Shown here piece by piece: positions 1,203 to 59,953 of a DNA stretch of 64,000 bases (the stretch's first letter is position 1; every line of letters starts with the position of its first letter). Below the pieces are notes generated by a model. The model searched no databases. It saw nothing but the letters and a program-made list of their open reading frames with translations, and was not told the DNA's origin. This DNA comes from Longitalea arenae (GTDB taxonomy: Bacteria; Bacteroidota; Bacteroidia; Chitinophagales; Chitinophagaceae): positions 62,001-126,000 of the forward strand of contig NZ_JAFFJX010000006.1 of NCBI RefSeq assembly GCF_016924755.1. The letters are read 5' to 3'. The translations under genes were made by a program, and so were the position numbers.

Positions 1203-1336
1203 ATTAGCTAATCTGCTAATGTGCTAATTTGCTAATGCTTCAAGGCCGTGCGGTCGTAAAAATCGAAGGTCATGGGTACAACAGGATTCAGTCCTGTATT
1301 CATTAGCACATCAGCACATTAGCAAATCAGCACATT
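1203..1336. repeat. Inverted pair of 8-bp tandem arrays (TGCTAATG family)
   Basis: A left array of about four TGCTAATK-type units lies at 1203-1238. A right array of the reverse complement (CATTAGCA, CATCAGCA) lies at 1299-1336. The spacer of about 60 bases ends in CTGTATT (1294-1300), a motif seen at arm edges in other gaps. The two arrays could form a long imperfect hairpin between two co-directional genes. The right arm runs into the start region of the next gene. Confidence 0.85.
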
Positions 1337-1997
1337 GGCTATTACCATTCACAACGTTGGAAATTTGTATATAAGAATCTTTATAACCGGCATGTTCATA
1401 AGTTTCCTGGGTACCCTGCCACTGGGAACGCTGAATATTGCGGCCATGCAGATCTCCGTTAGTGACGGCATTCGTCCGGCCCTCTACTTTTCACTGGGCG
1501 CACTGCTGGTGGAGATCTTCTATGTGCGCATTTCCCTGGTGGCCATGGACTGGGTGACGCAACATAAGAAATTATTCCGCTGGCTCGAATGGGTTACCAT
1601 CCTGATCATAACCGCCCTGGCCATAACGAACTTTATTGCCGCCGCCAGTCCGGAGACGCAAAAGAATGTCATTCTTTCCCATACCATCCCGAAGTTTTAT
1701 TTAGGCCTGGCCATGAGTGCCGTGAACCCGGCCCAGATCCCTTTCTGGTTTGGCTGGAGCACCGCATTATTCACTAAAAAAGTGTTGCAGCCACGCAACG
1801 ATCACTATAACGTTTATATCGCCGGTATTGGCCTGGGCACTTTCCTGGGCAATGCAGTGTTCATTTTTGGCGGACAACTCATCGTTACGCGTTTAAATGC
1901 GAACCAGGGCCTCATCAGCTGGATCATTGGAGGCGTTTTTGCGATCACGGCCATTATCATGGCATGGCGCCTGCTTAGGAAGAAGAACATAGTTTGA
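1335..1997 (+). CDS. LysE-type amino-acid/metabolite exporter
   Basis: The product of up to 220 residues is very hydrophobic, with about six predicted membrane segments. It carries the N-terminal FLGTLPLGTLN segment that replaces the PGP motif of LysE/RhtB exporters in Bacteroidota relatives. LysE-type proteins export amino acids or small metabolites across the inner membrane; the substrate here is unknown. The start is uncertain. The longest frame uses TTG at 1335, which lies in the last bases of a repeat arm. TTG at 1365 and ATG at 1392 are alternatives, and 1365 would leave a typical short N-terminus. The gene ends directly at a second repeat array. Confidence 0.75.
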   Translation: MAITIHNVGNLYIRIFITGMFISFLGTLPLGTLNIAAMQISVSDGIRPALYFSLGALLVEIFYVRISLVAMDWVTQHKKLFRWLEWVTILIITALAITNFIAAASPETQKNVILSHTIPKFYLGLAMSAVNPAQIPFWFGWSTALFTKKVLQPRNDHYNVYIAGIGLGTFLGNAVFIFGGQLIVTRLNANQGLISWIIGGVFAITAIIMAWRLLRKKNIV

Positions 1998-2198
1998 TTT
2001 CGGGATTTCTGGATTTTGGGATTTTGAGATTTCGGGATTTCGAGATTTCGAGATTTCGAGATTTCGGGATTTAGAGATTTAGAGATTTCGGGATTTCGAG
2101 ATTTCGGGATTTCGAGATTTAGAGATTTAGAGATTTTGGGATTATAAGATCTATGGGGTGGTTGATCTGGAGCAAATCTCAAAATCCCGAAATCCCGC
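1996..2198. repeat. 8-bp tandem array (CGAGATTT family) with inverted tail
   Basis: From the stop of the exporter gene to about 2145 the sequence is a near-continuous array of about 18 degenerate 8-mers of the form NGRGATTT. A short reverse-complement block (AAATCTCAAAATCCCG) at 2174-2189 matches units near 2018-2032, so the gap can fold back on itself. A minus-strand open frame across the array encodes only a repetitive SKSLNPEI-type peptide and is not a gene. With the next 140 bases this fills the gap to the lipoprotein gene. Confidence 0.85.
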
Positions 2199-2343
2199 CA
2201 TCAGAAATTCTTTTTTCATTATTACTCAGCACGTTATATAGATGGAACAATTTCCTTTCCCGCCACGTACCAAAAAAAATTATAATTCGTTTTAAACCAG
2301 GCGCCCGGCTGCCAGTCTGAAGCCGGATCATAAATCATACCCC

Positions 2344-3204
2344 ATGCTAAAAAAACAATCCATTTTCCCGGGCATTATGGCCTGTTTCTTCATTTCACTT
2401 TCCTTCACCGCCTGTAAAAAAGATTCAAAACCATCAGCAGATACCGATACCGCCGCAGCACAGGACAATGCTATGGCCGAATCATCTTATACCGATGCCA
2501 CCACTATGGTAGACGCATCTGTAACTTTTGGCGCTAACTTTTCTTTCCGTGTGGCTGCCAATGAACCAACAGCCCGCGTGGAAAGCGTATTTGGGAATTG
2601 TGTAACGGTAACTTTAGATACTGTAAGCAGCAACCGTTCCCTGATCATTAATTTTGGCACCACCAACTGTTTGTGTGCTGATGGCAGAAAACGCAGGGGC
2701 CGCATCCTGGCCAACTGGACCGGTAAATACCGCGATGCAGGCACCGTAGTGAACATTACATACGATAATTACTTTGTGAACGATAACCAGATCAAAGGCA
2801 CCCACAAGACCACCAACCTGGGTTTGAACAATGCGGGCAACCTCGTATATAAGATCGAGGTGAACGGCGTTATCATAAAAGCAGATAATGGGGGGGAAAT
2901 TACCTGGGTATCTACCCGTCAACGCGAATGGGTGGCCGGCGCCGGCACGCCGCTGAATATCCTCGATGATACTTACTCAATCACCGGGTCGGCCAATGGC
3001 ACCGTTGCCTCCGGTCATGCTTATACTATCAATATCACCCAGGCCCTGGTTCGTAAAATGACCTGTAACTGGTTTGAAAGTGGCAAAATTGAATTAACAC
3101 CGGCAGGTTTGGCCACACGTACCCTGGATTACGGTAATTCCGGATGCGATGCCAACGCTACTTTCTCAATAGGCGGAGTAACGTTTAATATTGTGCTACC
3201 TTAA
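2344..3204 (+). CDS. Secreted lipoprotein of unknown function
   Basis: The 286-residue product begins with a signal peptide ending in the lipobox FTAC, with the lipidated cysteine at residue 24. A charged KKDSKPS segment and a low-complexity Ala/Asp/Thr stretch follow. The rest is rich in beta-type sequence, with several cysteines (NCVTV, NCLCAD, MTCNW, SGCD) that could form disulfides outside the cytoplasm. The pattern is common for Bacteroidota surface or periplasmic lipoproteins. No catalytic motif is visible, and the flanking genes are in their own units, so no role is proposed. Confidence 0.75.
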   Translation: MLKKQSIFPGIMACFFISLSFTACKKDSKPSADTDTAAAQDNAMAESSYTDATTMVDASVTFGANFSFRVAANEPTARVESVFGNCVTVTLDTVSSNRSLIINFGTTNCLCADGRKRRGRILANWTGKYRDAGTVVNITYDNYFVNDNQIKGTHKTTNLGLNNAGNLVYKIEVNGVIIKADNGGEITWVSTRQREWVAGAGTPLNILDDTYSITGSANGTVASGHAYTINITQALVRKMTCNWFESGKIELTPAGLATRTLDYGNSGCDANATFSIGGVTFNIVLP

Positions 3205-3372
3205 TAATGTGATAATGTGATAATTGGATAATGTGATAATTGAAAACAAATACGCAATTAGCTAATGTGTAATCTGATAATGAAAACAAATACAAACTGT
3301 GCTAATTAGCTATTAAAAAAATTCAGATCAGCCTGTGGCTGTTCATTATCAAATTATCGAATTATCACATTA
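3205..3372. repeat. Inverted 8-bp arrays (GATAATGT family) between convergent genes
   Basis: Directly after the lipoprotein stop there is an array of GATAATGT/GATAATTG units, then degenerate GCTAAT-type units. The right arm (ATTATCAAATTATCGAATT, then ATCACATTA) at about 3348-3372 is the reverse complement of the left arm. The arm ends at the stop of the convergent Fe-S gene, so a hairpin here could serve as the 3' end of both transcripts. Confidence 0.8.
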
Positions 3373-4698: not shown

Positions 4699-4796
4699 AC
4701 TAATTGGCTAATTTGCTAATTAGCTGATTTGCTGATTTGCTGATGTGCTAATGGAAGCAATTTGCTGATTAGCTGATTAGCTAATGTGCTAATCAA
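4699..4796. repeat. 8-bp tandem array (TGCTAATG family)
   Basis: About eleven units of the form TGCTAATK or TGCTGATK lie between two minus-strand genes. No clear inverted partner was seen here; the array is followed instead by a 7-bp array of another family. Confidence 0.8.
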
Positions 4797-4821: not shown

Positions 4822-4890
4822 GCTGGGTAACCGGCAACCGGCAACTGGTACCCGGTAACCGGCAACCGGTAACTGGTACCCGGCAACCGC
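4822..4890. repeat. 7-bp tandem array (GGTAACC family)
   Basis: About ten degenerate 7-mers of the form GGYAMCY reach to within four bases of the stop codon of the bestrophin-like gene. The unit contains GGTACC and GGTAACC, which are self-complementary, so the array can fold on itself. Confidence 0.8.
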
Positions 4891-6019: not shown

Positions 6020-6517
6020 ATGGCGCGTAATTATATACTCGACAAGGAAGCAGTAGCCCGGAAATTACAACGGATAGCCTATGAGATCGTAGAAAATAAC
6101 CTGGAGGAACAGCAGATCATTCTTGCCGGCATCCGGGACAATGGAAGCGCCATCGCCCGTACTATTGAAAAACTGTTACGATCGATCAATAGTAATATCG
6201 CCATTTGGAATATCGATATTTCCCTCGACAAAAAATCGCCGCACGATATCAGGCTGAGCGGTGAAACCGATTTTACCGATAAAGTGATCATCGTAATTGA
6301 CGATGTCGCCAACAGCGGCAGAACCATGCTGTATGCCATAAAACCATTTTTGGCCTACCTGCCTAAAAAGATCCAGACACTGGCGCTGGTAGAACGCACG
6401 CATAAAGCCTATCCTGTAAAAACAGATTACGTTGGATTATCGGTAGCAACCACTTTGCAGGAGCATATTTTCGTTGAAGTGGAGGGCGATGTAATTACCG
6501 GGGCTTACCTGGAGTAG
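6020..6517 (+). CDS. PyrR-like phosphoribosyltransferase
   Basis: The 165-residue protein has the type I phosphoribosyltransferase fold signature, with the PRPP-binding loop VIIVIDDVANSGRT at residues 89-102 and the DYVGLSVATT strand near the C-terminus that resembles PyrR. Such enzymes transfer phosphoribose to a base, and PyrR also controls pyrimidine genes, but no pyrimidine genes lie here. The frame extends upstream to 5927. I prefer the ATG at 6020 because a promoter candidate lies directly before it and the MARNYILDKEAVARKL start fits the family. The base specificity is not readable. Confidence 0.8.
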   Translation: MARNYILDKEAVARKLQRIAYEIVENNLEEQQIILAGIRDNGSAIARTIEKLLRSINSNIAIWNIDISLDKKSPHDIRLSGETDFTDKVIIVIDDVANSGRTMLYAIKPFLAYLPKKIQTLALVERTHKAYPVKTDYVGLSVATTLQEHIFVEVEGDVITGAYLE

Positions 6518-6573
6518 TTCACAGTTCATAGTTCTAAGTTCTAACTTTTAGGTTCACAGTTCTAAGTTCGCTG
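6516..6573. repeat. 7-bp tandem array (AGTTCTA family)
   Basis: About eight degenerate AGTTCTA/AGTTCAC units begin at the stop of the phosphoribosyltransferase gene. No strong inverted partner was found in the rest of the gap, apart from a weak match near 6713-6735. Confidence 0.6.
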
Positions 6574-8481: not shown

Positions 8482-8537
8482 GGCATAAATAAAGGTATAG
8501 AGGCATAAAGGAATAGAGGCAGTCTGAAATACAAAAT

Positions 8538-8586
8538 AAAAAAAGGAACAAAGCAGATTCAATATCGACTTTGTTCCTTTTTCTTT
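8538..8586. terminator. Bidirectional intrinsic terminator
   Basis: The stem AAAAAGGAACAAAG pairs with CTTTGTTCCTTTTT across a loop of about 15 bases. A-rich and T-rich flanks sit on both sides, so it can stop transcripts from the mutase gene and the convergent OmpH gene. Confidence 0.85.
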
Positions 8587-10467: not shown

Positions 10468-10790
10468 ATGTGTTGGTTTGTTGTTTGTTGTTTGTGGTTT
10501 GTTGTTTTCTTCTGTTCGGCATTAAAAGCAATTCAGAAACCAGTTTATTGTTTATTGTTTTTGGTTTATCGTTGTCTTCTGTTCGGCCTCAAAAGCAATT
10601 TCAACTTTACGAAAACCGGTTTGTGGTTTGTGGTCTGTGGTTTGTGGTTGTCTTCTGTTCGGCCTCAAAAGCAATTTCGAATTTCCGCCACCTAAAACCA
10701 GTTTATTGTTTATTGTTTTTGGTTTATCGTTGTCTTCTGTTCGGCCTCAAAAGCAATTTCGAATTTCCGTTCAGCGAAAACCAGTTATAT
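10468..10790. repeat. Composite direct repeat, four copies, with 7-bp GGTTTGT/GTTTATT tracts
   Basis: Four copies of a module are seen. Each has a G/T-rich tract of 7-mers (GGTTTGT or GTTTATT) followed by a conserved segment GTCTTCTGTTCGGCCTCAAA and its continuation. The conserved segments begin near 10508, 10574, 10649 and 10731. A block of about 60 bases is essentially identical between about 10541-10602 and 10698-10759. Forward open frames through here (LLFIVFGLSLSS repeats) are by-products of the repeat. Confidence 0.85.
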
Positions 10791-10825
10791 TGTTATGGTT
10801 TATGTTCCAGGGTGCAAGGTTTGCC

Positions 10826-10893
10826 TGTAACTTGTAACCTGTAACCTGTAACCTGTAACCTGTAACCTATAACTTGTAACCTGTAACCTGTAA
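10826..10893. repeat. 7-bp tandem array (CCTGTAA family)
   Basis: About nine nearly perfect CCTGTAA units run up to the stop codon of the MFS permease gene on the minus strand. The same unit appears, with an inverted partner, near 35103-35200 and 55985-56095. Confidence 0.9.
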
Positions 10894-10895
10894 CG

Positions 10896-26939: not shown

Positions 26940-27057
26940 AGTCATATCGGTCAAAGGTGTCAAATGGGACAAAAAGTCGAAACGGATGAACTTATATGAC
27001 CTATATGACTAATTGACTGATGTGACTGATATGACTGAATTGACTGATTTGACTGGT
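26940..27057. repeat. Inverted 9-bp tandem arrays (TGACTGATA family)
   Basis: The right arm at about 26994-27057 has seven units such as TGATGTGAC, TGATATGAC and TGAATTGAC. The left arm at about 26940-26985 has the complementary phase (GTCATATCG, GTCAAAGGT, GTCAAATGG). It fills the gap between the GNAT and ABC-F genes, both on the minus strand. Confidence 0.8.
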
Positions 27058-29112
27058 TTACTGTTTCGCTTCCAGCTCCATTATTTTTTCAAACACTTCT
27101 TCGTACTGCTTGTTCATGCGCTGCAATTCGTCACTCACTTTCTTATAATCAGTTTCTGTTTGCACAAATTTGTTCCTGTCGGCATAGGTGTCCGGCGCTG
27201 TCAACTGTACTTCCAGCTTTGCTTTTTGCTGATTCAGCTGGGCGATCTTTTCTTCCAGTTGTTGAAAGGCCTTCTGCTGTTTCTGCAATTCCTTCTTCAA
27301 TTCTTTATTGATAGGCCCCTGGGGTTTAAGGTCTGCAGGCTGAGGCCTGAGCTCCGGGGCCTGCAATTCGCTCTCCGGTTTCTGGTTCCTGATCTCAGCT
27401 TTCTGACTTCCGCCTTCTTGCTTCTGGTTTCTGTTGTCCGGCTTCTGCGCTCTGGATTCTGACTTCTGACCCCCGGCTTCCAACCGCTGTTTTTGTCTTT
27501 CTTTCCACTCGCCCCATTCTTCGTAACCGCCGGCAAAGGTTTTGATCTTGTGATCGTCGATCTCCCAGATCGTATTGGCCACCTTCGATACAAAATAGCG
27601 GTCGTGGCTAACCAGGATGAGGCTGCCTTCATATTTGCTCAACGCCTCGATCAGGAGTTCTACGGAATGAATATCCAGGTGGTTGGTAGGCTCGTCGAGC
27701 ATCAGGAAATTGGCTTTGCTGATGATGGTCTTGGCCAGGGCCACCCGCGCTTTTTCACCACCGCTTAATACCTTGATCTTTTTATCGATGTCATCGCCCC
27801 CGAATAAGAAACATCCCAGCAGGTTGCGCAGTTCCTGTTCGGTTTTCTGGCTGCCTGCCGCTTTCATTTCCTCGAGCAGGGTATTGTTCACATCCAGCGC
27901 TTCGAGCTGGTGCTGGGCATAAAAGCTTTCTTCGACATTATGTCCCCATTTGCGTTCACCGCTGAACGATTCAGTCCCCGCAATGATGCGCAGGAGGGTG
28001 GATTTACCCTTTCCGTTGGCGCCGATCAACGCGATCTTATCGCCGCGGTTGATCTCTGCATGCGTGTCTTCAACAATGATATTATCACCAAATTTCTTTG
28101 TGATATGTTTCAATTCGCATAAGACTTTACCGGGTACTTTATCTACCTGGAAGTTGATGCGGATGTTGGGTCTTTCAATGGCTACATCTTCGATCCGGTC
28201 AAGCTTTTCGAGTCGTTTCATGGCACTCTGGGCCGCTGCTGCTTTCGATGCTTTGGCTTTGAACCGTTCAATAAAGCGCTCCTGCTGGCGAATATAGTCC
28301 TGCTGATTTTCGAAGGCCCGTTGCTGCAGTTCTATGCGCTGCACTTTTTCTTCTTCGTAATAGGAATAATTGCCATTATAGATATGCAGTTGCCGCTGGT
28401 ATAATTCTACGATCTTCGTCACCATACGGTCGAGGAAATATTTATCGTGGCTCACGATCACCACAGAGCCCTGGTAATGGATGAGGTATTTCTCCAGCCA
28501 TTCGATAGAGGGCAGGTCAAGGTGGTTGGTAGGCTCGTCGAGCAACAGCAGATCAGGCGCCTGGAGGATCATTTTGGCCAGCAGCACCCGCATGCGCCAG
28601 CCTCCGCTGAATTCGCGGTAAGGACGTTGCAGATCGGCATTCGAAAAACCAAGCCCCTGCAGCACTTCTTCCGTTTTGTGATGGATATTGTACCCACCCA
28701 GGGTTTCCAGTTCATGCAGTTTATCGGAATATTTGTGCAACAGCACTTCCGTTTCGGCCTCAGAGATGCCGCTGGTTGGTGAATTCTCCAGCTGTTTGCC
28801 CAGCTCTTCGATCTCCTTCTCCAGTTGCATCACCCGCTCGAAAGCGCCCAATGCCACCTGTAAAATGGAATCTGAGGTATCAAAACTGAGCAGGTCCTGG
28901 TGCAAATAGCCAATGGTAGTTCCACGGCTTCTTTCCACCGTACCGGCCGAAGCCTGGTATTGACCCACCAAAAGTTTTAAGAGGGTTGATTTTCCGGTTC
29001 CGTTATAGCCAATTAATCCAATGCGTTCATTGGGTTGAATATGCCAGGTTGCATCTTCTACAATTGCCCGGGCTCCAAATTCAAAAGTTACGTTCGTTAA
29101 TCCTGCCAGCAT
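27058..29112 (-). CDS. ABC-F family ATPase (translation factor type)
   Basis: The 684-residue protein has two ABC domains with no membrane part, as in ABC-F proteins that act on the ribosome exit site. The first has Walker A GYNGTGKST near residue 35, signature FSGGWRMRVLLA and Walker B LLLLDEPTNHLD. The second has GANGKGKST, LSGGEKARVALAK and FLMLDEPTNHLD. An arm region rich in Glu, Gln and Arg lies between them, and the C-terminal 80 residues are a coiled coil, as in Uup. Between the second ABC domain and that coil, residues about 545-596, is a linker of about seven QKxExRx-like heptapeptides, coded by a 7-bp periodic DNA array. The function is translation rescue or antibiotic protection; which one is not known. 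Confidence 0.88.
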   Translation of the reverse strand: MLAGLTNVTFEFGARAIVEDATWHIQPNERIGLIGYNGTGKSTLLKLLVGQYQASAGTVERSRGTTIGYLHQDLLSFDTSDSILQVALGAFERVMQLEKEIEELGKQLENSPTSGISEAETEVLLHKYSDKLHELETLGGYNIHHKTEEVLQGLGFSNADLQRPYREFSGGWRMRVLLAKMILQAPDLLLLDEPTNHLDLPSIEWLEKYLIHYQGSVVIVSHDKYFLDRMVTKIVELYQRQLHIYNGNYSYYEEEKVQRIELQQRAFENQQDYIRQQERFIERFKAKASKAAAAQSAMKRLEKLDRIEDVAIERPNIRINFQVDKVPGKVLCELKHITKKFGDNIIVEDTHAEINRGDKIALIGANGKGKSTLLRIIAGTESFSGERKWGHNVEESFYAQHQLEALDVNNTLLEEMKAAGSQKTEQELRNLLGCFLFGGDDIDKKIKVLSGGEKARVALAKTIISKANFLMLDEPTNHLDIHSVELLIEALSKYEGSLILVSHDRYFVSKVANTIWEIDDHKIKTFAGGYEEWGEWKERQKQRLEAGGQKSESRAQKPDNRNQKQEGGSQKAEIRNQKPESELQAPELRPQPADLKPQGPINKELKKELQKQQKAFQQLEEKIAQLNQQKAKLEVQLTAPDTYADRNKFVQTETDYKKVSDELQRMNKQYEEVFEKIMELEAKQ
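27329..27470. repeat. 7-bp tandem array inside the ABC-F gene
   Basis: On the plus strand about twenty consecutive 7-mers of the form CTTCTGR or TTTCTGG stay in register. Because 21 bases are three DNA units and seven codons, the array is translated as a heptapeptide repeat with consensus QKxExRx. The unit and its degeneracy are like those of the gap arrays in this window. Confidence 0.75.
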
Positions 29113-35102: not shown

Positions 35103-35200
35103 GTTACAGGTTTCATGTTTCAGGTTACAGGGATCTTCCGGTCTGTTGGTCGATTTTTTACGAGTACCCATGAAACTTGTAACCTGCAACCTGTAACAGT
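35103..35200. repeat. Inverted 7-bp arrays (CTGTAAC family) between convergent genes
   Basis: The left arm at 35103-35132 (GTTACAGGTTTCATGTTTCA and on) and the right arm at 35169-35200 (TGAAACTTGTAACCTGCAAC and on) are reverse complements over about 30 bases, with a spacer of about 37 bases. The same unit occurs without a partner at 10826-10893. Confidence 0.8.
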
Positions 35201-36166: not shown

Positions 36167-36307
36167 AATGTGATAATTAGCTAATGTGCTAAGGTGCTAA
36201 TTTGCTAATGTGCTAATTTGCTAATGGCTATATGCGAGCAGTTCCTGATCCCAATGCCTGCCTGTATTTAATCAGCACATCAGCAAATCAGCACATCGGC
36301 AATTCAG
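36167..36307. repeat. Inverted 8-bp arrays (TGCTAATG family)
   Basis: The left arm at 36167-36226 has about seven GCTAATNT units. The right arm at 36270-36307 has reverse-complement units (ATCAGCAC, ATCAGCAA). CTGTATT sits at 36262-36268, directly before the right arm, as it does at 1294-1300. The right arm reaches the stop of the next gene. Confidence 0.85.
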
Positions 36308-40449: not shown

Positions 40450-40616
40450 TGGTTGCTGGGTACACGTTGCAAGTTCCAAGTTACAGGTTGCAGGGTATAG
40501 GTTTCAGGTTACAGGTTTCAGGTTGCAGGTTGCGAGGTGCATGTTGCAGGGGAATACAGTTGCTGGGTCCACACGTTGCAGGTTTCAAGTTGCATGTTGC
40601 AGGTTTGTAGGTCGCA
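40450..40616. repeat. 7-bp tandem array (GGTTGCA family)
   Basis: Degenerate GGTTGCA/GGTTTCA/GGTTACA units run through the gap. GGGAATACAG at 40550-40559 carries the reverse complement of the CTGTATT motif. The units appear again in opposite orientation after rplT. Confidence 0.75.
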
Positions 40617-40638
40617 GTAACCGGAACTCATAACCGTC

Positions 40639-40797
40639 GACCGGCGACCGGTAACCGGTAACCGGTAACCGGTAACTGGTACCCGGTAACTGGTACCTGG
40701 TAACTGGTACCCGGTAACTGGTACCCGGTAACCGGCAACTGGTACCCGGTAACCGGCAACCGGTAACTGGTACCCGGCAACTGGTACCCGGCAACTC
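40639..40797. repeat. 7-bp tandem array (GGTAACC family)
   Basis: More than twenty units of the form GGYAMCY (GGTAACC, GGTACCC, GGCAACT) run without break. The unit family is the same as at 4822-4890. The array ends about 50 bases before the rpmI promoter. Confidence 0.85.
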
Positions 40798-41696: not shown

Positions 41697-41875
41697 AGTT
41701 GCACCCTGTAATCTAAAACTTGTCAACTGAAACCTGCAACATGCAGCTTGCATTTCCCGGCGACTGGTAACCGGCAACTGGCAACTGATTACGATATCCA
41801 GAGAACGCTCAACTTACCAGCCCGTACCCTGAAACCAGTAACCTGAAACTTTTGTAACCAATGCCCGGTACCTGC
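41697..41875. repeat. Mixed 7-bp arrays (CTGCAAC and GGCAACT families)
   Basis: Degenerate CCTGTAA/ACCTGCAAC units are followed by CGACTGGTAACCGGCAAC-type units, then more CCTGAAAC units. The CTGCAAC units are inverted relative to the GGTTGCA array before rpmI, so the two blocks face each other across rpmI-rplT. Confidence 0.65.
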
Positions 41876-43435: not shown

Positions 43436-43894
43436 ATGAAACGATTTGCGATCTTTTTAACCGTAGTTTTAGCCATAACCTGTTCTGTACAGGGGCAAAC
43501 AACCGAAGATTCGGTGAAAGCCACCATCAACCGGATGTTCGAAGGCATGAAAAACGCCGATACCAACCTTTTGAAATCGGCCTTTACAGATGATCCCATA
43601 TTGCAAACCATTGCTACCAACAAAAAGAAGCAGGTTCACATCAAAAGCGACAAGTATAAGGACTTCGTAAAATTTATCGGTCAGCAGAAAGTAGGGGAGG
43701 CCGATGAGCGGATAGAATTCGAGACCATTCGCATTGACGGTCCGCTCGCCATGGCCTGGACGCCCTATCAGTTCTACTACAAAGGCAAATTCAGGCATTG
43801 CGGCGTCAATTCTTTTCAACTGGTTCGCCTTGAAGACGGCTGGAAGATCCAGTACCTGATAGATACCAGGCGGAAAGATTGCAGCAATAATTAG
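43436..43894 (+). CDS. Secreted NTF2-like (lumazine-binding-like) protein
   Basis: The 152-residue product has a signal peptide to about residue 21 (CSVQGQ) and then an NTF2/SnoaL-type cone fold: DSVKATINRMFEGMKNADTN as the first helix and late strands ending GWKIQYLIDTRR. Proteins of this kind in Bacteroidota usually bind small ligands in the periplasm, and no catalytic residue is evident. It follows the decarboxylase gene by 28 bases on the same strand, so it may be cotranscribed. A strong terminator lies downstream. Confidence 0.75.
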   Translation: MKRFAIFLTVVLAITCSVQGQTTEDSVKATINRMFEGMKNADTNLLKSAFTDDPILQTIATNKKKQVHIKSDKYKDFVKFIGQQKVGEADERIEFETIRIDGPLAMAWTPYQFYYKGKFRHCGVNSFQLVRLEDGWKIQYLIDTRRKDCSNN

Positions 43895-44086
43895 CTGATT
43901 TGCTGATCCCGCAGAGCGGGACAAGTTGTGCTAATGAGCTATGAGCTAATGAAAAAAACCCGCGCTATTGAACCATTTAAAACAAAGGTTGAACAGCGCG
44001 GGTTTTTTATTTACAGTGAGAACGCCCGGGAAGTATCAGCAAATCAGCACATCAGCAAATCAGCACATCAGCAAATCAGCTCATCA
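43890..44086. repeat. Inverted 8-bp arrays (TGCTAATG family) enclosing a terminator
   Basis: The left arm at 43890-43950 has TTAGCTGATTTGCTGAT, a 26-bp GC-hairpin insert at 43905-43930, then CTAATGAGCT units. The right arm at 44033-44086 has seven ATCAGCAA/ATCAGCAC units of the opposite strand. The terminator at 43953-44008 is inside the loop. Confidence 0.85.
43953..44008. terminator. Strong bidirectional intrinsic terminator
   Basis: AAAAAACCCGCGCT pairs with AGCGCGGGTTTTTT, with a small mismatch and further pairs GAACC/GGTT inside. A- and T-tracts lie on both sides. It separates the NTF2-like gene from the convergent secreted protein gene. Confidence 0.9.
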
Positions 44087-45394
44087 TCTCTTCGTGCGAT
44101 ATTTCTTGTTCACTTTGGGACTATTAAAATACTGGTTCAGTTCCTTTTCACTCATATTGCTGGTGATCTCGATGGGAATATCAACCAGCTGCACCTGGAT
44201 CTGCTTTAATTCTTCTTTCAGTTTGCCGGTTTTCCGGGCAATATCCGGATCGCGCTCACCCACCAGGGCATTGTCGCTGATCATATATTCCAACCGTTTA
44301 ATAGCGGTGCGGATCCCGGAGGCCTGGTTCTGCTCCGTTACTTTTTGCGGGGAAATGGCTTCTTTAACAGGCACCAGCGAAACGCCCACACTCGGCATTA
44401 CCTTACCTACTTTTTGCGAACTTTCGCTCGTTGACGAAGACATAATGCTTCCGGTCAATGCAGTGGCAGAACCGGTGATATCAAAAGTGGTGCGGGTCGA
44501 CTTGGTTCTTTTCACCCCCTTATCCAACTGCAGGAAGGTATATTTCAACCGCAGAATATAACCGTTGATGACGTTTACGGTGAGTTTATAGTCCTCGAGC
44601 GTTAAAGGATAGTTCAGGGCATCCTTTACTACAATTCTAACCTGCGCAGTGTCGCGAACCATAAACCGGTTGGCGCCTACAAAACTTACCACCACGGTCC
44701 TTTCCTTACCGGGGTCAGCCTCTTTCACAAAATCGAATCCCGGCGACCAGATAAAATCATCATCGCATTTTTTTACCAGGGTAGCGCCTTTCAGCGGCAT
44801 ATTGGCAAAATAAGTGATGGTCTCGATGGGAAAACTACCGTTCTCGCATTGCACCTTAAAGGCTACGGTATCGCCTTCATCCACGGTAAGGGTTCCGCCA
44901 ACGGTTGGTTTAACCCGGGATTGAATAATATCAGTGTTATAAAAGGTGATATAAAAAGAGGTATCCACATGGTCGCTGGGCGTTTCCAGGTTCTGTACGC
45001 CCACGCTTACCCGGTATTGATAATCGTACTTGAGCTTGCCCGACAGGAAATAGGATTTTTCCGCTTTGAAGGTCAGTAAGCCATTGTCTTTATTAATGCG
45101 CAGGCCAATGGGCGGGTTGCGCAGGAACCAGTAATACCTGGATTGATCCTTGTTGATCTCCAGTTTGTAGGCCAGGGAAGAATCCACATGCAGGGTAAAA
45201 TAAGGATTGAGATTCTTGATGCGCAGGGCAACCTCCGCCGAGTCAACAATGAAAGGCAAAGTGTCGATATGTTTGCGACCGTGAAATGCACTATCTACCG
45301 GCTGCCGATCCTGAGCAATAGACCATACGCCTGATAGCATACAAAGTACGATCAATCCCAACGTCTTTCGGATACAGAAGGTAAGTTCTCTCAT
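44084..45394 (-). CDS. Large secreted protein of unknown function with cadherin/Ig-like region
   Basis: The 436-residue product has a signal peptide ending near residue 28 (VWSIAQ). Two beta-rich modules follow: NPPIGLRINKDNGLLTFKAEK with GKLKYDYQYRVSVGVQN resembles a cadherin-type or putative-Ig repeat, and TVGGTLTVDEGDTVAFKVQCENG resembles another sandwich domain. After about residue 280 come low-complexity Ser/Thr and charged helical segments to the basic tail KVNKKYRTKR. I do not recognise a named family; a structural surface or periplasmic role is likely. It lies in a convergent pair with the NTF2-like gene. Confidence 0.7.
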   Translation of the reverse strand: MRELTFCIRKTLGLIVLCMLSGVWSIAQDRQPVDSAFHGRKHIDTLPFIVDSAEVALRIKNLNPYFTLHVDSSLAYKLEINKDQSRYYWFLRNPPIGLRINKDNGLLTFKAEKSYFLSGKLKYDYQYRVSVGVQNLETPSDHVDTSFYITFYNTDIIQSRVKPTVGGTLTVDEGDTVAFKVQCENGSFPIETITYFANMPLKGATLVKKCDDDFIWSPGFDFVKEADPGKERTVVVSFVGANRFMVRDTAQVRIVVKDALNYPLTLEDYKLTVNVINGYILRLKYTFLQLDKGVKRTKSTRTTFDITGSATALTGSIMSSSTSESSQKVGKVMPSVGVSLVPVKEAISPQKVTEQNQASGIRTAIKRLEYMISDNALVGERDPDIARKTGKLKEELKQIQVQLVDIPIEITSNMSEKELNQYFNSPKVNKKYRTKR

Positions 45395-46577: not shown

Positions 46578-46617
46578 AATTTCTTAGCTGATTAATTCAG
46601 CTTTGTTCATAGTGATG

Positions 46618-46646
46618 AACCCTCTCATTCCTGGGAGGGTTTTTTA
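46618..46646 (+). terminator. Intrinsic terminator after the bacilliredoxin gene
   Basis: AACCCTC pairs with GAGGGTT across a ten-base loop and is followed by a T tract. Confidence 0.75.
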
Positions 46647-46654
46647 ATTCATTA

Positions 46655-46742
46655 AGCAATTGACAATAAGCAATAGGCAATATATGCCGATTGTCGGGCG
46701 TTACGCATATTTTTGGCAATTGCCAATTGCAAATTGCCAATT
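46655..46742. repeat. Inverted 7-bp arrays (GCAATTG family)
   Basis: The left arm at 46655-46682 has AGCAATTGACAATAAGCAAT-like units. The right arm at 46712-46742 has TTGGCAATTGCCAATTGCAA and more units. The units are partly self-complementary, so several foldings are possible. It lies between the bacilliredoxin terminator and lgt. Confidence 0.75.
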
Positions 46743-46804
46743 GGTTTGCTTATCATTGCAACTTTATTAAATCATTGGTAGTTACAAAAATCTATTCCTG
46801 ATAC

Positions 46805-48123: not shown

Positions 48124-48200
48124 TGAAATGTGATAATTTGATAAGTGATAATTTGATAATGTGATGATCCCGCAGAGCGGGACAAGTTGTGATAATGAAA
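48124..48200. repeat. 8-bp tandem array (GATAATGT family) with 26-bp insert
   Basis: About six GATAATTT/GATAAGT-like units are followed by an insert at 48166-48191 identical to the one at 43905-43930, then by GATAATGAAA. No clear inverted partner was seen in the rest of the gap. Confidence 0.8.
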
Positions 48201-52448: not shown

Positions 52449-54941
52449 ATGAAAAATACGTCTACCTGGTTAACGGGCATATTATGTTTTCTTTCCATTG
52501 TTGTTACTGCACAAAATAGGTCGGGTAAAGTAAGTGGCGTTATCACCGATGCAGATGCTCAACCAGTAGAATCGGCCAGCGCTTCCTTGCAAAGGGCAAA
52601 AGATTCATCGCTGGTTAAGGTAGCGGTTACCGACAAATACGGACTTTTTGAGTTTGATAACATTTTACAGGGAGATTATTTTGTCACCGTTACAGCTGTT
52701 GGTTACAAAAAGATCAGCAGCAAACGTTTTACAGTTCCGGTTGCATCGACGTATAAAATACCATCCTTTCAATTACAAAAAGCCGACGCAAAGACCCTGG
52801 GTGAAGTTACCGTCTCTGCTAAAAGACCCCTGATCGAGAACAAGATCGATCGAATGGTAGTGAATGTAGAGGCCGCACCAACCAATGCCGGCGCATCGGC
52901 CCTGGAAGTGCTGGAAAAATCGCCCGGCGTTACGGTAAGCAATGAAGGAGAGATCAGCCTGAAAGGCAAACAGGGGGTGCGGGTGATGCTGGATGGTAAA
53001 CCAACCTATTTGTCGCCGGCCGATCTGGCCAATCTGTTAAAGAACCTGCCGGCATCAGCCCTGGATCAGATCGAGATCATGACCAACCCACCGGCCCGCT
53101 ATGACGCCAGCGGCAATTCAGGCATTATCAATATCAAAACCAAAAAGAGCCTTACGGAAGGATTGAATGGTAGTATCTCAATCGGTGGCACCGTGAGCAA
53201 TTGGAAATACCGTAGTAATTCCTGGGAGTATCCGGTACGCGGTACCAGCAGCATCAACCTCAATTACCGGAAAGGCAAATGGAACCTCTTTGCAAATTAC
53301 AATTACAATTACCGTGAGGGCCGGGGTTCGCTGGAACTGGACCGCCGCTTTTTCGAAAAGGACGGTTCGTTGAATTCCACCTCGTTTACCAATACCCAAT
53401 TCATCGGCCGCAACAACAATCAAACGATAAAGGCAGGCTTCGATTATTACGCCAATAAAAAGAACGTTATCGGCGTAGCGCTTACCGGGTTCGGATTTTT
53501 TGGGCGCCCTTATCCAACCAGTTCCCAGACGATATTCAGGCCCGATGGAAGCATTGAATCGGTACTGGAATCCAGGATCGCCAACAGGAATAACTTCTTT
53601 AATTATTCTGCGAATATAAATTACAAGCATACATTCGATTCAACCGGGCATGAGCTCACTGCCGATATTGATTATATCGGTTACCTGAACAGTGCCAGGA
53701 ACACCTTGTACACTTCCATTTACGACAATAACGGCGGAGCCCTGGGCGGCCTTACCCTGTCAGGAGATATTCCCGGGTTGATCAATATCTATTCGGCCAA
53801 AGCCGACTATGTACGCCCGCTTAAAAATAATTTGCGCTTCGATGCCGGCTTTAAGGTAAGCTACGTAAAGAATGACAACGAAGTAAAATACGAACGCAAC
53901 GACAACGGCACCTGGAAACCAGACAACCGCTCGAACCACTTTATTTATAGAGAAAACATAAATGCAGGTTATATAAGCTTTAATAAGAAGTGGAAGAAAT
54001 GGAGCGGACAGGCAGGCCTGCGTATTGAAAATACCATTGCCAAGGGAAAACAGGTCACCAATGATTCCAGCTTTACCCGCAATTATACCAGCCTGTTCCC
54101 TACGGCATATATCAATTACGAAGCCAGTAAAAATCATGCTTTCACGTTAACCTATGGCCGCCGTATAGAAAGGCCTAATTACCAGGACCTGAACCCTTTC
54201 ATCTGGTTCTTGGATTCCTTACAATACCGCCAGGGCAATCCATACCTGCTGCCTCAATATGCCAACAATATTGAGTTCCGGCATACCTGGAAAGGGCGAT
54301 TCACCACGACGATCAATTATACGCTTACCGACGATGTGATATCGCAGCTCCTGAAACAAAACACCGAAAAAAGGATCACCTTTCTCACAACCGATAATGT
54401 AGCGAAGTTCAAGAATATCGGTCTGGCCATCAACGCTCCTTTTTCACCGGTAAAGAACTGGAATGTGAACCTTTTTGTAAACGTATTCAATAACCGGTAT
54501 GAAGGCATATACTTCAATTCATTCACCGGCAATAACGATCCTATTGACATAAGTTATACCTCGGCGCTGGTAAACGTTAGTAACACATTTACCTTCAAAA
54601 AAGGATGGAGTGGGGAAGTGAGTGGTTGGTACCGGGGCAAGGCCATTGAGCAGTTAACGATCGCCGACCCGATGTTCTTCCTGAACCTGGGAGTGCAAAA
54701 AATGGTGATCAGGGGGAAAGGCACCCTGCGGCTGAATGTGCGCGACCCGTTCCACTGGCAGCAATTCAGGGGGCGTACGCTGTACAGCGATATAGATGTG
54801 AAGATCTTTAACCGCTGGGATAATCGAAATATTACGGCAACCTTCAGTTACCGCTTCGGTAAAAGCTCCGTGGCCCAGGCCCGTCGCAGGAATACCGGCG
54901 CCGCCGAAGAACAGAACAGGGCAGGAGGAAGTCAGAATTAG
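52449..54941 (+). CDS. Outer-membrane beta-barrel protein, paralogue of the 49189 gene
   Basis: The 830-residue product has the same plan: signal peptide to about residue 21 (VVTAQ), regulatory-like sandwich (GVITDADAQPVESASASLQR), plug-like segment (EVLEKSPGVTVSNEGEIS, LDQIEIMTNPPARYDASGNS) and barrel with YGRRIERPNYQDLNPFIWF. It shares motif order and several identical blocks with the gene at 49189, so a duplication is likely. The 3' end reads SQN-stop as AGTCAGAATTAG, and this stretch is copied in the repeat array that follows. A Fur-box-like site is upstream. Confidence 0.85.
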   Translation: MKNTSTWLTGILCFLSIVVTAQNRSGKVSGVITDADAQPVESASASLQRAKDSSLVKVAVTDKYGLFEFDNILQGDYFVTVTAVGYKKISSKRFTVPVASTYKIPSFQLQKADAKTLGEVTVSAKRPLIENKIDRMVVNVEAAPTNAGASALEVLEKSPGVTVSNEGEISLKGKQGVRVMLDGKPTYLSPADLANLLKNLPASALDQIEIMTNPPARYDASGNSGIINIKTKKSLTEGLNGSISIGGTVSNWKYRSNSWEYPVRGTSSINLNYRKGKWNLFANYNYNYREGRGSLELDRRFFEKDGSLNSTSFTNTQFIGRNNNQTIKAGFDYYANKKNVIGVALTGFGFFGRPYPTSSQTIFRPDGSIESVLESRIANRNNFFNYSANINYKHTFDSTGHELTADIDYIGYLNSARNTLYTSIYDNNGGALGGLTLSGDIPGLINIYSAKADYVRPLKNNLRFDAGFKVSYVKNDNEVKYERNDNGTWKPDNRSNHFIYRENINAGYISFNKKWKKWSGQAGLRIENTIAKGKQVTNDSSFTRNYTSLFPTAYINYEASKNHAFTLTYGRRIERPNYQDLNPFIWFLDSLQYRQGNPYLLPQYANNIEFRHTWKGRFTTTINYTLTDDVISQLLKQNTEKRITFLTTDNVAKFKNIGLAINAPFSPVKNWNVNLFVNVFNNRYEGIYFNSFTGNNDPIDISYTSALVNVSNTFTFKKGWSGEVSGWYRGKAIEQLTIADPMFFLNLGVQKMVIRGKGTLRLNVRDPFHWQQFRGRTLYSDIDVKIFNRWDNRNITATFSYRFGKSSVAQARRRNTGAAEEQNRAGGSQN

Positions 54942-55213
54942 CTAATGTGCTAATTTGCTGATGTGCTAATGGAATACAGTCAGAATTAGCTAATGTGCTA
55001 ATATGCTGATGTGCTAATGGAATACAGTTAGAATTTGCTGATGTGCTGATGTGCTGATGTGCTAATGGAATACAGTCAGAATTAGCTAATGTGCTAATGT
55101 GCTGATGTGCTAATGGAATACAGTCAGAATTTGCTGATGTGCTAATGTGCTGATGTATTAATGGAATACAGTCAGAATTTGCTGATGTGCTAATGTGCTA
55201 GTGGAATACAGGA
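54930..55213. repeat. 48-bp tandem array (six 8-mers per unit) starting in the barrel gene's 3' end
   Basis: About six copies of a 48-bp unit are seen, each made of GCTAATGT-type 8-mers plus GGAATACAGTCAGAATTA. The segment AGTCAGAATTA occurs at 54930 and again at 54978, exactly 48 bases on. The first copy overlaps the last codons and stop of the barrel gene. Units differ by single-base changes. Confidence 0.9.
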
Positions 55214-55289
55214 TCCAAGATATAATGATTGTTGTTGGTGGAATACGCAAACGTCCAGGTAACACGAGCTCCCAATAAGTTGGGTACCG

Positions 55290-55337
55290 TCTAATTTCAT
55301 AATTAGCACATCAGCAAATTATCACATTATCACATTA
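55290..55337. repeat. Inverted arm matching the 48-bp array
   Basis: AATTAGCACATCAGCAAATT and the ATCACATTATCACATTA that follows are the reverse complement of TGCTAAT and GATAATGT units. It follows the array after about 75 bases without repeats. Confidence 0.7.
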
Positions 55338-55984: not shown

Positions 55985-56095
55985 GCCAAGAGTTACAAGT
56001 TCCAGGTTTCAGGGCGCCCTCCAGTTGTGAATGCTTCCCGGTTTAGCATCCTGCACCGATAGCCATGTAACTTGTAACCTGTAACAGCTCTTGGC
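55985..56095. repeat. Inverted 7-bp arrays (CTGTAAC family)
   Basis: GCCAAGAGTTACAAGTTCCA at the left is mirrored by TGTAACTTGTAACCTGTAAC and AGCTCTTGGC at the right, so GCCAAGAG and CTCTTGGC close the element. The units are the same as at 10826 and 35103. Confidence 0.8.
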
Positions 56096-58456: not shown

Positions 58457-59218
58457 ATGCGCAAACAAATTGCTGCGGCTAACTGGAAGATGAATTGTAC
58501 CTACCAACAAGGCGAACAGTTACTCAATGAGATCCTTTCAGCCAAAATTGCATTAAAAGAACATCAGCAAACCATTTTTGCCGTTCCTTTCCCCTACCTG
58601 ATCATGGCAAAAAGTGAGACCGAGGAAGAGAACAATTATTTTGTTGCTGCTCAGAACTGTTATAACAAAAAATCAGGTGCTTACACCGGTGAGGTATCAG
58701 CCGAAATGTTGCAGTCGATCGGTATCCAATTCTGTGTGCTGGGTCACAGTGAGCGCCGTGAATATTTTCAGGAGTCGAACAAGATGCTGGCCGAAAAACT
58801 GGATCTCTGCCTGCAGCACAATATCACCCCCATATTTTGCTGCGGTGAGCCGCTGAACATTCGCGAAGCCAACACACAAAACAGCTTTGTAGAAACGCAG
58901 TTAAAGGAATCTCTTTTCCATTTATCAGATACAGATATCAAACGCATCGTGATCGCTTATGAACCCATTTGGGCCATTGGAACAGGAAAAACAGCCAGTT
59001 CTGAACAGGCCCAGGAAATGCATGCCTACCTGCGCAGTGTACTGGCCAAACAATATGGCGCTGCTACGGCCGATGCCATTTCTATCCTCTATGGCGGCAG
59101 TGTAAAAGCCAATAATGCGAAAGAATTGTTCAGCTGCCCGGACGTTGATGGCGGACTGGTAGGCGGCGCTTCACTGAATGCGTCAGAATTCATAACTATA
59201 ATCAAGAGTTTAAAATAG
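58457..59218 (+). CDS. tpiA: Triose-phosphate isomerase
   Basis: The 253-residue glycolytic enzyme interconverts dihydroxyacetone phosphate and glyceraldehyde 3-phosphate. Motifs are AANWKMN at the start (Lys12-type), GHSERREYF (catalytic His) near residue 95, YEPIWAIGTGK (catalytic Glu) near 170, and YGGSVKANN near 212. All expected residues are present. It follows the GlmU-like gene by 32 bases, so cotranscription is likely. A repeat element of GAAGTAT units lies downstream. Confidence 0.95.
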   Translation: MRKQIAAANWKMNCTYQQGEQLLNEILSAKIALKEHQQTIFAVPFPYLIMAKSETEEENNYFVAAQNCYNKKSGAYTGEVSAEMLQSIGIQFCVLGHSERREYFQESNKMLAEKLDLCLQHNITPIFCCGEPLNIREANTQNSFVETQLKESLFHLSDTDIKRIVIAYEPIWAIGTGKTASSEQAQEMHAYLRSVLAKQYGAATADAISILYGGSVKANNAKELFSCPDVDGGLVGGASLNASEFITIIKSLK

Positions 59219-59234
59219 CGCCTTCCGGCAGGAT

Positions 59235-59320
59235 GCGAAGAAGTATGAAGTATGAGGTAACCTTCTTAACTTTTACCCCAGACTTCGTACTTCTTACTTT
59301 CAATTTCTTACTTCTTCCCC
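59235..59320. repeat. Inverted arrays (GAAGTAT family)
   Basis: GAAGAAGTATGAAGTATGAG on the left is mirrored by TTCGTACTTCTTACTTTC and more on the right. The units are about 7 bp and degenerate. It lies between tpiA and the hemerythrin-like gene. Confidence 0.7.
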
Positions 59321-59411
59321 TTTGCCAATTGATTGTTAAAAGCCTTAACAATTTTTCCCCAGAAACCGCTTATGGATTGATTATTGTTTTCCTTTCCCGG
59401 GAGGAATTGTT

Positions 59412-59843
59412 ATGGAACATTCAAAGGCATTACAGGTGCTATCCTGGCAACACAAGGAAGACAGGTTAAAGTGCCGTGAGTTTTTAAAAGATATCCAGCA
59501 GCAGCGCGATAAGACCAGTATCCGGCAACGGATCCTTCAATTCTGGAAGAACGAGCTGCAGAAGCATGTGGAGGCTGAAGAAGCGATATTATTCCCTTTT
59601 TTGCAGAAACATCATTTCCCTTTCAACTTCGTGAATATTCTCAAGCGGGAGCACGATACCATTCGCCTGCTGGCCGAACGCCTTAACCGGCACGACGAGG
59701 ATTATTATCTGTATAAAGCCTTTATCAAACTGGTTGACCAGCATAGCCGCTTTGAAGATGAGATCATCTTCAGAAAAATGGAAGAATTGATTCCCCAACA
59801 GGAACTAAGTCAGCTAAATACGTCAATGGCTGCAGCACGCTGA
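59412..59843 (+). CDS. Hemerythrin-type HHE domain protein
   Basis: The 143-residue helical protein has a hemerythrin-like pattern of iron ligands: LSWQHKEDR, HVEAEEAILFPFL, LKREHDTI, and VDQHSRFEDEIIF. These are His and Glu residues in the four-helix bundle that could bind a di-iron centre for O2 or NO sensing, or for iron-sulfur repair. It stands alone. The stop lies within the left arm of a repeat element. Confidence 0.75.
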   Translation: MEHSKALQVLSWQHKEDRLKCREFLKDIQQQRDKTSIRQRILQFWKNELQKHVEAEEAILFPFLQKHHFPFNFVNILKREHDTIRLLAERLNRHDEDYYLYKAFIKLVDQHSRFEDEIIFRKMEELIPQQELSQLNTSMAAAR

Positions 59844-59953
59844 ACGCCCAACGCAGAACGCCAAACGCTTAGCCGCATTGAAACGTTTTTAGTTTTTAGG
59901 GAATTACCCATTAAAAAGAATTGCGTTCAGTGTTCAGCCTCAAGCGTTTTGCG
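59842..59953. repeat. Inverted 7-bp arrays (AACGCCC family)
   Basis: The left arm at 59842-59870 has AACGCCC, AACGCAG, AACGCCA and AACGCTT. The right arm at 59921-59953 has the complement (TTGCGTTCAGTGTTCAG and AAGCGTTTTGCG). It lies between the hemerythrin-like gene and the GT9 gene. Confidence 0.8.

Follow-up and report, generated by a model that had tools for sequence, protein, structure and literature searches.

Degenerate 7-9 bp tandem arrays at ORF edges in Longitalea arenae and its relatives, with the G-richer strand leading outward

The gaps between genes of the soil bacterium Longitalea arenae contain degenerate tandem arrays of 7, 8 or 9 bp units, and the G-richer strand of these arrays leads away from the nearest ORF. 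The best explanation, to which we give an even chance, is that the arrays are satellite-like DNA spreading in tolerant gaps through a polarised DNA-level process. A few unit families per genome would grow at ORF edges, often beginning in the stop codon, by slippage or by repeated use of a template. The arrays would be inherited in place while their units shift by one or two letters, expand and contract, and at times one family would yield to another. The process would act on DNA and have a built-in polarity, the G-richer strand running 5' to 3' away from the ORF. Selection would mainly set tolerance, admitting arrays almost never to coding DNA and seldom beside start codons, and most sites would be neutral. 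Any influence on mRNA stability or 3' ends would be secondary and confined to particular sites.

Arrays of the window and their extent

The window is a stretch of 64,000 nucleotides (contig NZ_JAFFJX010000006.1, positions 62,001 to 126,000). The work was sequence analysis only, and genes were taken from our own gene caller. The L. arenae genome was sampled at C22, C11 and C36, 400 kb each, i.e. 1.2 of 7.28 Mb. A four-genome pool added to this 1.2 Mb sequence from L. luteola (400 kb), N. populi (140 kb) and Niastella sp. OAS944 (260 kb). The coverage, edge, wobble, terminator, polarity and GGG counts given below come from this pool, whose genomes share ancestry. Loci L126-L143 were picked because they contained GCTAAT arrays.

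A 7-9 bp array was detected in 18 of the 41 window gaps (gaps of at least 40 bp, score at least 9), where Markov shuffles expect 0.45. The initial annotation, which had listed about nineteen array gaps and about thirteen inverted partners, was thus close. The best inverted repeat (score at least 11) sat on an array in 12 of the 18 gaps, and a thirteenth case, 43895-44083, has short arms on either side of a terminator. The unit length of 7, 8 or 9 bp claimed there also held: at score 12, 133 of 135 gap arrays in 864 kb had one of these periods, and a single shuffled run on the same gaps gave one array, of period 5. The called coding sequence (721 kb) contained 12 arrays. Period 7 accounted for 58 gap arrays vs 4 coding ones, and period 8 was equally common (69 gap arrays). 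Inverted pairs were present in 73 of 134 array gaps. In the pool, 140 of the 282 array-bearing gaps had inverted repeats of score at least 14, compared with 68 of the 891 gaps lacking arrays and none of 282 shuffled gaps. A CRISPR needs unique spacers of regular size, along with cas genes; judged from the repeat layout, the head-to-tail 7-9 bp units are, as first annotated, not CRISPR.

In tandem gaps, the inverted 8-mer pair at 1202..1336 consists of a GCTAATNT arm (1207-1236) and an ATYAGCNN arm (1301-1335), and at 1996..2210 a GATTTYGR array (1996-2143) lies over the stop codon, with an inverted AAATCCCG arm at 2174-2210. The segment 4700..4889 contains GCTRATNT arrays (4700-4753, 4760-4793) and a 7-mer GGTAACC/GGCAACC array (4826-4889); 10476..10894 has 7-mer GTTTGTT/GTTTATT arrays within an 82-bp repeat plus a TGTAACC array (10826-10894). 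At 26940..27059 a 9-mer TTGACTGAT array (27014-27059) has its inverted partner at 26940-26963. The 7-mer GGTTNCA arrays at 40463-40533 and 40572-40605 are joined by an inverted GGTAACC/GGTACCC array at 40633-40796 (whole element 40452..40796), and a 7-mer GGCAACT array of score 10 occupies 41757..41787. At 54930..55337 a 48-bp higher-order repeat that begins at the stop codon contains GCTRATNT arrays, with an inverted ATTAGC arm at 55302-55337. The inverted pair at 55992..56085 includes a weak 7-mer TGTAACC array (56066-56085), and 59238..59316 is an inverted 7-mer pair GAAGTAT / ACTTCTT.

In convergent gaps, the inverted pair GATAATNT (3204-3240) / ATTATCNN (3345-3370) reaches both stop codons (3204..3370). 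A weak 8-mer array (score 10) at 8489..8519 is distinct from the inverted repeat 8540-8582. The 7-mers GTTTCAG (35103-35131) and CTGTAAC (35171-35197) form another inverted pair, and a GATAATNT array at 48127..48190 has a mini-hairpin embedded at 48169-48190. At 43893..44089 a GCTRAT arm stands at the left stop codon and a ATCAGCAN arm (44035-44089) extends up to the right one; the element encloses an embedded mini-hairpin (43908-43929) and a bidirectional terminator (43953-44008).

The inverted 7-mer pair CAATAGG / ATTGCCA at 46654..46746 has a conserved terminator on one side and the following promoter region on the other. Three of the four pairs first given as examples (1203-1336, 35103-35200 and 36167-36307) were recovered. 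For the fourth, 59842-59953, the inverted copy is weak: the 7-mer AACGCCA array at 59837..59953 (TRF 59837-59868) is under the detector score, and its best inverted repeat scores 10.7.

Position and strand polarity

In 2.0 Mb of the four related genomes, arrays were present in 42 of 241 divergent, 71 of 180 convergent and 169 of 763 tandem gaps. Divergent gaps were poorer (odds ratio 0.62, p 0.009, an optimistic value since the four genomes share ancestry), not empty as the window had led the initial annotation to state. When 800 kb of the same genome was added to the window, 11 of 97 divergent gaps had arrays (p 0.17 for depletion). Either rate would often yield the 0 of 7 found in the window; an eighth putative divergent gap, 62020-62034, lies inside the called gene 61216-63543 (+).

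Array edges in the pool peaked at -2/-1 of stop codons, and this peak inside the stop codon is a new observation. Stop codons were crossed by 80 arrays and start codons by 6; arrays covered 9.3% of the first 20 bp past stops vs 1.7% before starts. The thin coverage beside starts suffices to make divergent gaps poorer. The suggested association with 3' ends therefore stands as an effect of position; as a role for mRNA it is weak (see below).

Within 40 bp of the nearest ORF, the G-richer strand led outward in 171 pool arrays and inward in 38. The split was 66:10 at convergent stops, 59:20 at tandem stops, 36:5 at tandem starts and 10:3 at divergent starts. The corresponding ratios in array-free controls were 461:284 for starts and 285:249 for stops. 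Single arrays were also polarised (52:19 within 40 bp), as were arrays in six other genera (21:3). Polarity was constant within a family: the GCTAAT/GATAAT 5' type came first in 41 of 42 gaps containing both types, and of 73 inverted pairs 65 had the G-richer arm first. With arrays at both edges of a gap, the outward rule would produce an inverted pair. That the polarity is alike at stops and starts is new relative to the initial annotation. Since the rule also holds at start codons, an origin tied to the direction of transcription, as initially proposed, is unsupported. Nor did tandem gaps show the C-rich sense bias of rho sites in the single arrays closest to a stop: 27 were G-outward and 25 C-outward at all distances, and 19:12 within 40 bp.

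Outward polarity independent of gene direction would also follow if an enzyme with a short template (for instance a reverse transcriptase paired with an ncRNA, like DRT10) extended DNA 3' ends; joining of both extended ends would give outward G strands and inverted pairs, like fused telomeres. The narrow period range and the small vocabularies differing between species fit such templated addition, and DRT10 is an example of a bacterial enzyme writing short tandem repeats (PMC12632851). DRT10 cDNA shares with the arrays the nature of short bacterial tandem-repeat DNA with a set unit length, but is the product of a defence system, whereas the arrays are chromosomal. Against this explanation, conserved terminators lie between arms and the arrays are degenerate. 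Moreover, none of the five RVT_1 genes above cut-off in the genome is linked to arrays; two of them were scanned against PADLOC, one being Drt8-like and the other a general RT. We hold templated addition to be very unlikely, and grant just as slim a chance to a telomere-like process in which an enzyme with a 7-9 nt template starts at ORF edges and writes species-specific words outward, always in the same G-strand polarity. If true, the latter would be shared by Bacteroidota, Xanthomonas and Nostoc and would keep rebuilding intergenic DNA.

The closest known parallel is the heptamer arrays of Xanthomonas and Nostoc (GGGAATC / GGGGA(C/T)T), which have been linked to G-quadruplexes, form 70 inverted pairs in one Xanthomonas genome and 75 in another, and are scarce between divergent ORFs; related species share most sites, with varying length (PMC4692102). 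Like them, our arrays are degenerate, intergenic tandem repeats including 7-mers, with the G-rich strand outward and with inverted pairs, and they follow the same strand rule (the G-rich strand is coding after stops and non-coding before starts). Xanthomonas and Nostoc have one G-quadruplex-capable unit type per genome; in contrast, the arrays described here have many unit types, mostly without GGG runs, and families switch between sister species. The arrays thus look like a many-worded version of the Xanthomonas/Nostoc heptamer repeat. A G-quadruplex function, as considered for those heptamers, might be proposed from the common placement and strand rule and from the GGG runs present in (GATTTCGG)n arrays and in part of the ATTGCCC arrays. 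But 345 of 438 arrays are free of GGG/CCC runs, only 10 have four or more, and the run-free arrays are still outward (139:32). As a general cause G-quadruplexes are unlikely, and we would assign such a function hardly any probability. The G-outward rule holds for many 7, 8 and 9 bp units, mostly without G runs, so that the issue is less one of G-quadruplexes than of a general DNA process by which such arrays are made and oriented.

Unit families, inheritance and spread

The unit sequence is not free to differ from gap to gap, as had been thought, but is drawn from a small vocabulary. In the 1.2 Mb of L. arenae, 103 7-mer arrays formed 14 clusters and the 108 8-mer arrays another 11, to which the 9-mers are added. 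Vocabularies are species-specific, with few families per genome. A single GCTRATNT pattern had 48 matches across the genome, some of them overlapping. GCTRATNT arms have in common an inner cap, G(A)AAWACA, found on 21 of 63 5'-type arms in four genomes (90 of 63,023 background windows), on none of 82 arms from four other families, and rarely in other genera (1 of 15 arms). Its rarity in other genera speaks against the satellite-like reading.

Comparison of 161 slots between L. arenae and L. luteola showed an array in both species in 37, in one in 36 and in none in 88. The unit family was the same in 29 of the 37 shared slots (random mean 10.2) and had switched in the other 8. Such inherited slots with family switching between sister species are a new observation. 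The inverted pair GCTAATNT (36174-36225) / ATCAGCNN (36271-36301) is one example: in this slot L. luteola has the GATAAT type and N. vici a 7-mer AAGTAGG type. Near-empty sites were also seen between relatives, as at 6516..6550, where the 7-mer AGTTCTA array of L. arenae starts within the stop codon and L. luteola has only about 9 bp.

In the preferred, satellite-like reading families would spread from locus to locus by copying, of which GCTRATNT with its cap would be the clearest case. Copying between the arms of one gap, beyond family sharing, is not supported: with family held constant, same-gap arms matched no better than different-gap arms (p 0.10, 0.13 and 0.45 for GCTAAT; 0.95 and 0.97 for GATTT). 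The C/A choice covaried between arms (r 0.58, permutation p 0.004) and the A/G position did not (p 0.14). The lack of matching arms, and the fact that no copying enzyme was found, also count against the satellite-like reading.

Alternatively, the arrays could be mobile palindromic elements, MITE- or REP-like, with tandem-repeat arms, moved beside ORFs by a transposase. The recurrence of GCTRATNT with its inner cap (the family is present in 18 of 101 genera of the taxonomic family), the near-empty sites and a REP-like mini-hairpin, CAACTTGTCCCG, embedded in some arrays favour this alternative. However, two near-empty sites read by eye had no clear target duplication, arm length is variable, and four other families have no cap. 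Of 20 12-mers outside arrays found in at least 7 gaps, all but CAACTTGTCCCG were array words, spacers being otherwise unshared. A search limited to Y1_Tnp gave just two matches in the genome, both at loci with ordinary arrays, which argues against a RAYT as driver. Classical REP elements would be palindromes of 20-40 bp bearing a GTAG/CGTC tag, accompanied by a tyrosine transposase (RAYT). REP elements (PMC3733652) are similarly intergenic, palindromic and present in many copies, but the arrays differ from them in their arms of 7-9 bp tandem units, variable spacer and polarity outward from ORFs. We consider mobile elements an improbable source of the arrays.

A phylum draw of 395 genomes yielded three tandem GATTTYGR units in two of them, L. 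arenae and G543; L. arenae was the only representative of its genus in the draw, and GATTT arrays do exist in L. luteola. The reversed control of this survey matched 14 times in one genome (G308), unlike that of the clean GCTRATNT survey. In 20 stretches totalling 326,627 bases, four of them shorter than 2.5 kb, from other families of the phylum, period 7 occurred five times, 8 once, 9 four times, 11 once and 12 twice. No description of such arrays in Longitalea or Niastella was found in the open-licence PMC literature. The tandem heptanucleotides of heterocystous cyanobacteria are known as STRR sequences. They resemble the arrays, by description, in being degenerate and located in gaps. Calothrix has been named in connection with tandem heptanucleotides (PMC4692102). 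TAACTGA direct repeats occur in Beggiatoaceae, some Cyanobacteria and five Bacteroidetes (PMC4679880); they too are intergenic heptamers with further heptamers alongside and a patchy distribution, but have another unit and, in their main genome, are mostly found immediately ahead of start codons and include only one indirect repeat.

RNA-level effects and the atpD-atpC slot

The inverted pairs could act as RNA hairpins, at the 3' ends of mRNAs or in between cistrons, that halt RNA polymerase, stop 3' exonucleases or modulate translation downstream; selection would then preserve the structure and not the sequence. The frequency of inverted pairs and the array maximum in convergent gaps agree with such RNA elements. 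Terminator-like sites were present in 18 of 71 convergent gaps with arrays vs 53 of 109 without (p 0.002). This shortage of canonical sites speaks for a role at mRNA 3' ends and against the satellite-like reading. The corresponding figures were 25 of 169 vs 109 of 594 in tandem gaps (p 0.30) and 7 of 42 vs 28 of 199 in divergent gaps. Arrays are not intrinsic terminators by rule, as sites with a GC-rich stem and a T run were no commoner beside them.

Tandem-gap arm mismatches in the pool, read in the mRNA sense, were G.U in 99 and A.C in 113 cases. This lack of wobble bias, itself a new observation, does not back selection on RNA pairing. Another new observation is that inverted pairs lie within ATP-synthase (atpD-atpC) and ribosomal-protein gene runs. 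Because of these pairs and the missing G.U excess, the case for the arrays acting at the 3' ends of mRNA is weak. The many single arrays, the location inside operons and the unmatched arms of single gaps also tell against RNA elements, which we consider rather unlikely as the general explanation.

The atpD-atpC element is identical in L. arenae and L. luteola save for a 22-bp indel, and the adjacent CDS tail is 93.7% identical. In other genera the slot has hairpins of different sequence (survey of the best 30 of 280 genomes with an AtpD match, plus L142). Together these two findings suggest a function of the element at this slot and count in favour of RNA elements. The conservation speaks against satellite-like DNA here; the element may have been co-opted. 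Family switching at inherited slots and the varied atp-slot hairpins make these places where the process might be watched by strain sequencing. The atpD-atpC gap is 137 bp long in L154 and 115 bp in L155. RNA folding of atp gaps, covering the 15 of 30 loci with a strict junction pattern, beat shuffles only moderately, which tells against RNA elements; z was -1.5 for L. luteola and -2.1 for N. populi, reaching -3.5 in G038.

Occurrence and placement of the arrays

The genome of Longitalea arenae comprises 7.28 Mb in 40 contigs, and the window corresponds to C36:62001-126000. The closest named relative among the loci found was L. luteola (97% identity for one window protein), followed by Niastella species. 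Genes were predicted with our own hexamer model and arrays, i.e. degenerate tandem rows of 7-9 bp units, were detected with our own self-match detector. At score 9 an array was found in 18 of the 41 window gaps of at least 40 bp, where 0.45 was expected. In an 864-kb set (window plus 400 kb each of contigs C22 and C11 of the same genome) the score-12 gap arrays had periods of 7 (58 arrays), 8 (69), 9 (6) or 11 (2), and none had a period of 5, 6, 10 or 12. Shuffling these gaps once yielded just one array, with a period of 5; the coding sequence (721 kb) contained 12. Thus, the arrays reported in the initial annotation exist and are far above chance. Higher-order tandem repeats of 82 bp (10537-10801) and 48 bp (54930-55199) include arrays, and at C36:397396-397710 an entire hairpin element of the GATTT family is repeated in tandem in approximately four copies.

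It had been proposed that the arrays are excluded from gaps between divergent genes. None of the 7 divergent window gaps held an array at score 9. In the larger samples the proposed exclusion proved wrong: arrays were present in 11 of 97 divergent gaps of at least 60 bp in the 864-kb set (tandem 54/356, convergent 21/78; divergent versus rest, p 0.17), and in 42 of 241 divergent gaps in 2.0 Mb from four genomes, those of L. arenae, L. luteola, N. populi and Niastella sp. OAS944 (tandem 169/763, convergent 71/180). Arrays are scarcer in divergent gaps, yet present there. In the 864-kb set convergent gaps ranked highest in all three length bins between 120 and 500 bp, and divergent gaps fell below tandem gaps in each, by a slim margin in the 300-500 bp bin (4/25 versus 10/52). 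Array-containing divergent gaps, some of them long, include C36:262433-262845 and C22:322509-323360, the latter with several 7-mer arrays.

The positional reading was partly borne out: arrays covered 9.3% of the first 20 bp past stops versus 1.7% ahead of starts. In the four genomes array edges peaked at -2 (n=20) and -1 (n=15) from the end of the stop codon, with 0-5 at each position from +10 to +30, and a stop was crossed by 80 arrays, a start by 6. The stop codon was frequently part of the unit (TAG followed by TTCAAAG, TGA by TTTCGGG, TAA by TGTGATAA, TAG by CTAATGTG).

Inverted pairs, strand polarity and known relatives

In 1.2 Mb of the L. arenae genome 114 of 219 arrays had an inverted partner (score at least 10) in their own gap, the expectation from other array gaps being 37. 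Inverted pairs were present in 73 of 134 array gaps, and in 65 of these 73 the first arm was the G-richer one. The 5' type preceded the 3' type in 41 of the 42 gaps carrying both types of the GCTAAT/GATAAT (GCTRATNT) family. Measured from the closest ORF edge no more than 40 bp away, the G-richer strand pointed outward (5' to 3' away from the ORF) in 171 cases and inward in 38; 18 were neutral. The rule was valid at stops, at starts and for single arrays (52:19), and was weaker at tandem stops (59:20), where the ratio for single arrays (19:12) was not significant. It also applied to arrays without a GGG or CCC run (139:32) and to other genera (21:3), in which families besides GCTAAT were outward in 7/7 cases. 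There is a mild background bias at starts, because array-free gaps already gave an outward:inward ratio of 461:284 there (285:249 at stops). This polarity is the most interesting feature of the arrays.

In PMC4692102, GGGAATC arrays are described from Xanthomonas and GGGGA(C/T)T arrays from Nostoc, their function being left open by the authors. The present arrays resemble these heptamers in placement, strand rule, stop-codon overlap and the deficit between divergent ORFs, and share inverted pairs with those of Xanthomonas, but differ in comprising many families, mostly without G runs. They are a many-family relative of the Xanthomonas and Nostoc arrays. TAACTGA repeats also occur in five Bacteroidetes (PMC4679880). 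DRT10 demonstrates that short tandem repeats can be written by bacterial enzymes (PMC12632851); no link to the present arrays is drawn here. A Drt8-like reverse transcriptase gene is located in the L. arenae genome (L150:1210-2805).

Tests of an RNA or 3'-end role

Arm mismatches read in the mRNA sense were G.U versus A.C in 99 versus 113 cases in tandem, 35 versus 51 in convergent and 26 versus 28 in divergent gaps. With the family held constant, arms from the same gap matched no better than arms from different gaps; in GCTAAT/GATAAT arrays, however, the arms covaried in whether they carried C or A. Terminator-like sites were found in 25/169 tandem gaps with arrays versus 109/594 without (Fisher p 0.30), and in 18/71 versus 53/109 convergent gaps (Fisher p 0.002). 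The smaller number of such sites in convergent array gaps is the strongest argument for a 3'-end role.

An inverted GCTAAT pair separates the ATP-synthase genes atpD and atpC in L. arenae and in genome G233 (L142). Among 30 AtpD loci read, this gap carried a score-10 array in 9, was array-free and 14-26 bp long in 8, and was of another form in 13, some with visible hairpins. Between L. arenae and L. luteola the element (C22:233056-233192, in locus L012, and L155) was identical save for a 22-bp indel and was better conserved than the neighbouring CDS tail (93.7% identical). In genome G165 (L138) arrays separate genes within one same-strand run of ribosomal-protein genes (L22, L16, L14, L6 and L18, assigned by Pfam). 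Since arrays sit inside atp and ribosomal-protein gene runs, they need not stop transcription. A 121-aa ORF lies between atpD and atpC at L178:3034-3399 and also in L183; it is presumably similar to 23S rRNA intervening-sequence proteins.

Unit families and their history

Each genome had few unit clusters, and the vocabulary varied by species. When 161 orthologous gaps of L. arenae and L. luteola were compared for 7-9 bp arrays, 37 had arrays in both species, 15 in L. arenae only, 21 in L. luteola only and 88 in neither. A common family (at most 2 mismatches) was found in 29 of the 37 shared array gaps, versus a mean of 10.2 and a maximum of 19 in 300 random pairings; in 8 the family differed. 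Near-empty sites were found after window position 6517 and at C36:172621; at the latter, the L. luteola protein also has a changed end.

At 46578-46804 the arms lie between a conserved terminator and a downstream region that is likewise conserved. They were of the ATTGCCA type in the window, L. luteola, N. populi, OAS944 and genome G002, and of the GTTTGTG type in N. caeni; visual inspection showed no arrays in N. vici or N. soli (the motif search used for this comparison missed 11 further loci). At 43895-44083 a bidirectional terminator lies between the arms, whose unit varies by species.

The GCTAAT-family sequence GCTAATNTGCTAATNTGCTRAT was detected in 30/294 genomes and 18/101 genera of the bacterial family, and the reversed control had 0 matches. 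An inner cap, G(A)AAWACA, was present on 5'-type arms of this unit family (L. arenae 14/43, L. luteola 5/9, N. populi plus OAS944 2/11; background 90/63,023 windows), and its inverse on 3'-type arms (9/37, 2/10 and 7/15, respectively). The cap occurred on 1/15 5'-type arms from five genera outside Longitalea and Niastella, and on 0/82 arms of four other unit families. A REP-like mini-hairpin, CCCGC-AGA-GCGGG-ACAAGTTGT, was found in 12 places in L. arenae and L. luteola, among them 43908-43929 and 48169-48190 of the window; by eye, 9 of the 12 lie within GCTAAT/GATAAT arrays, in one orientation relative to the unit.
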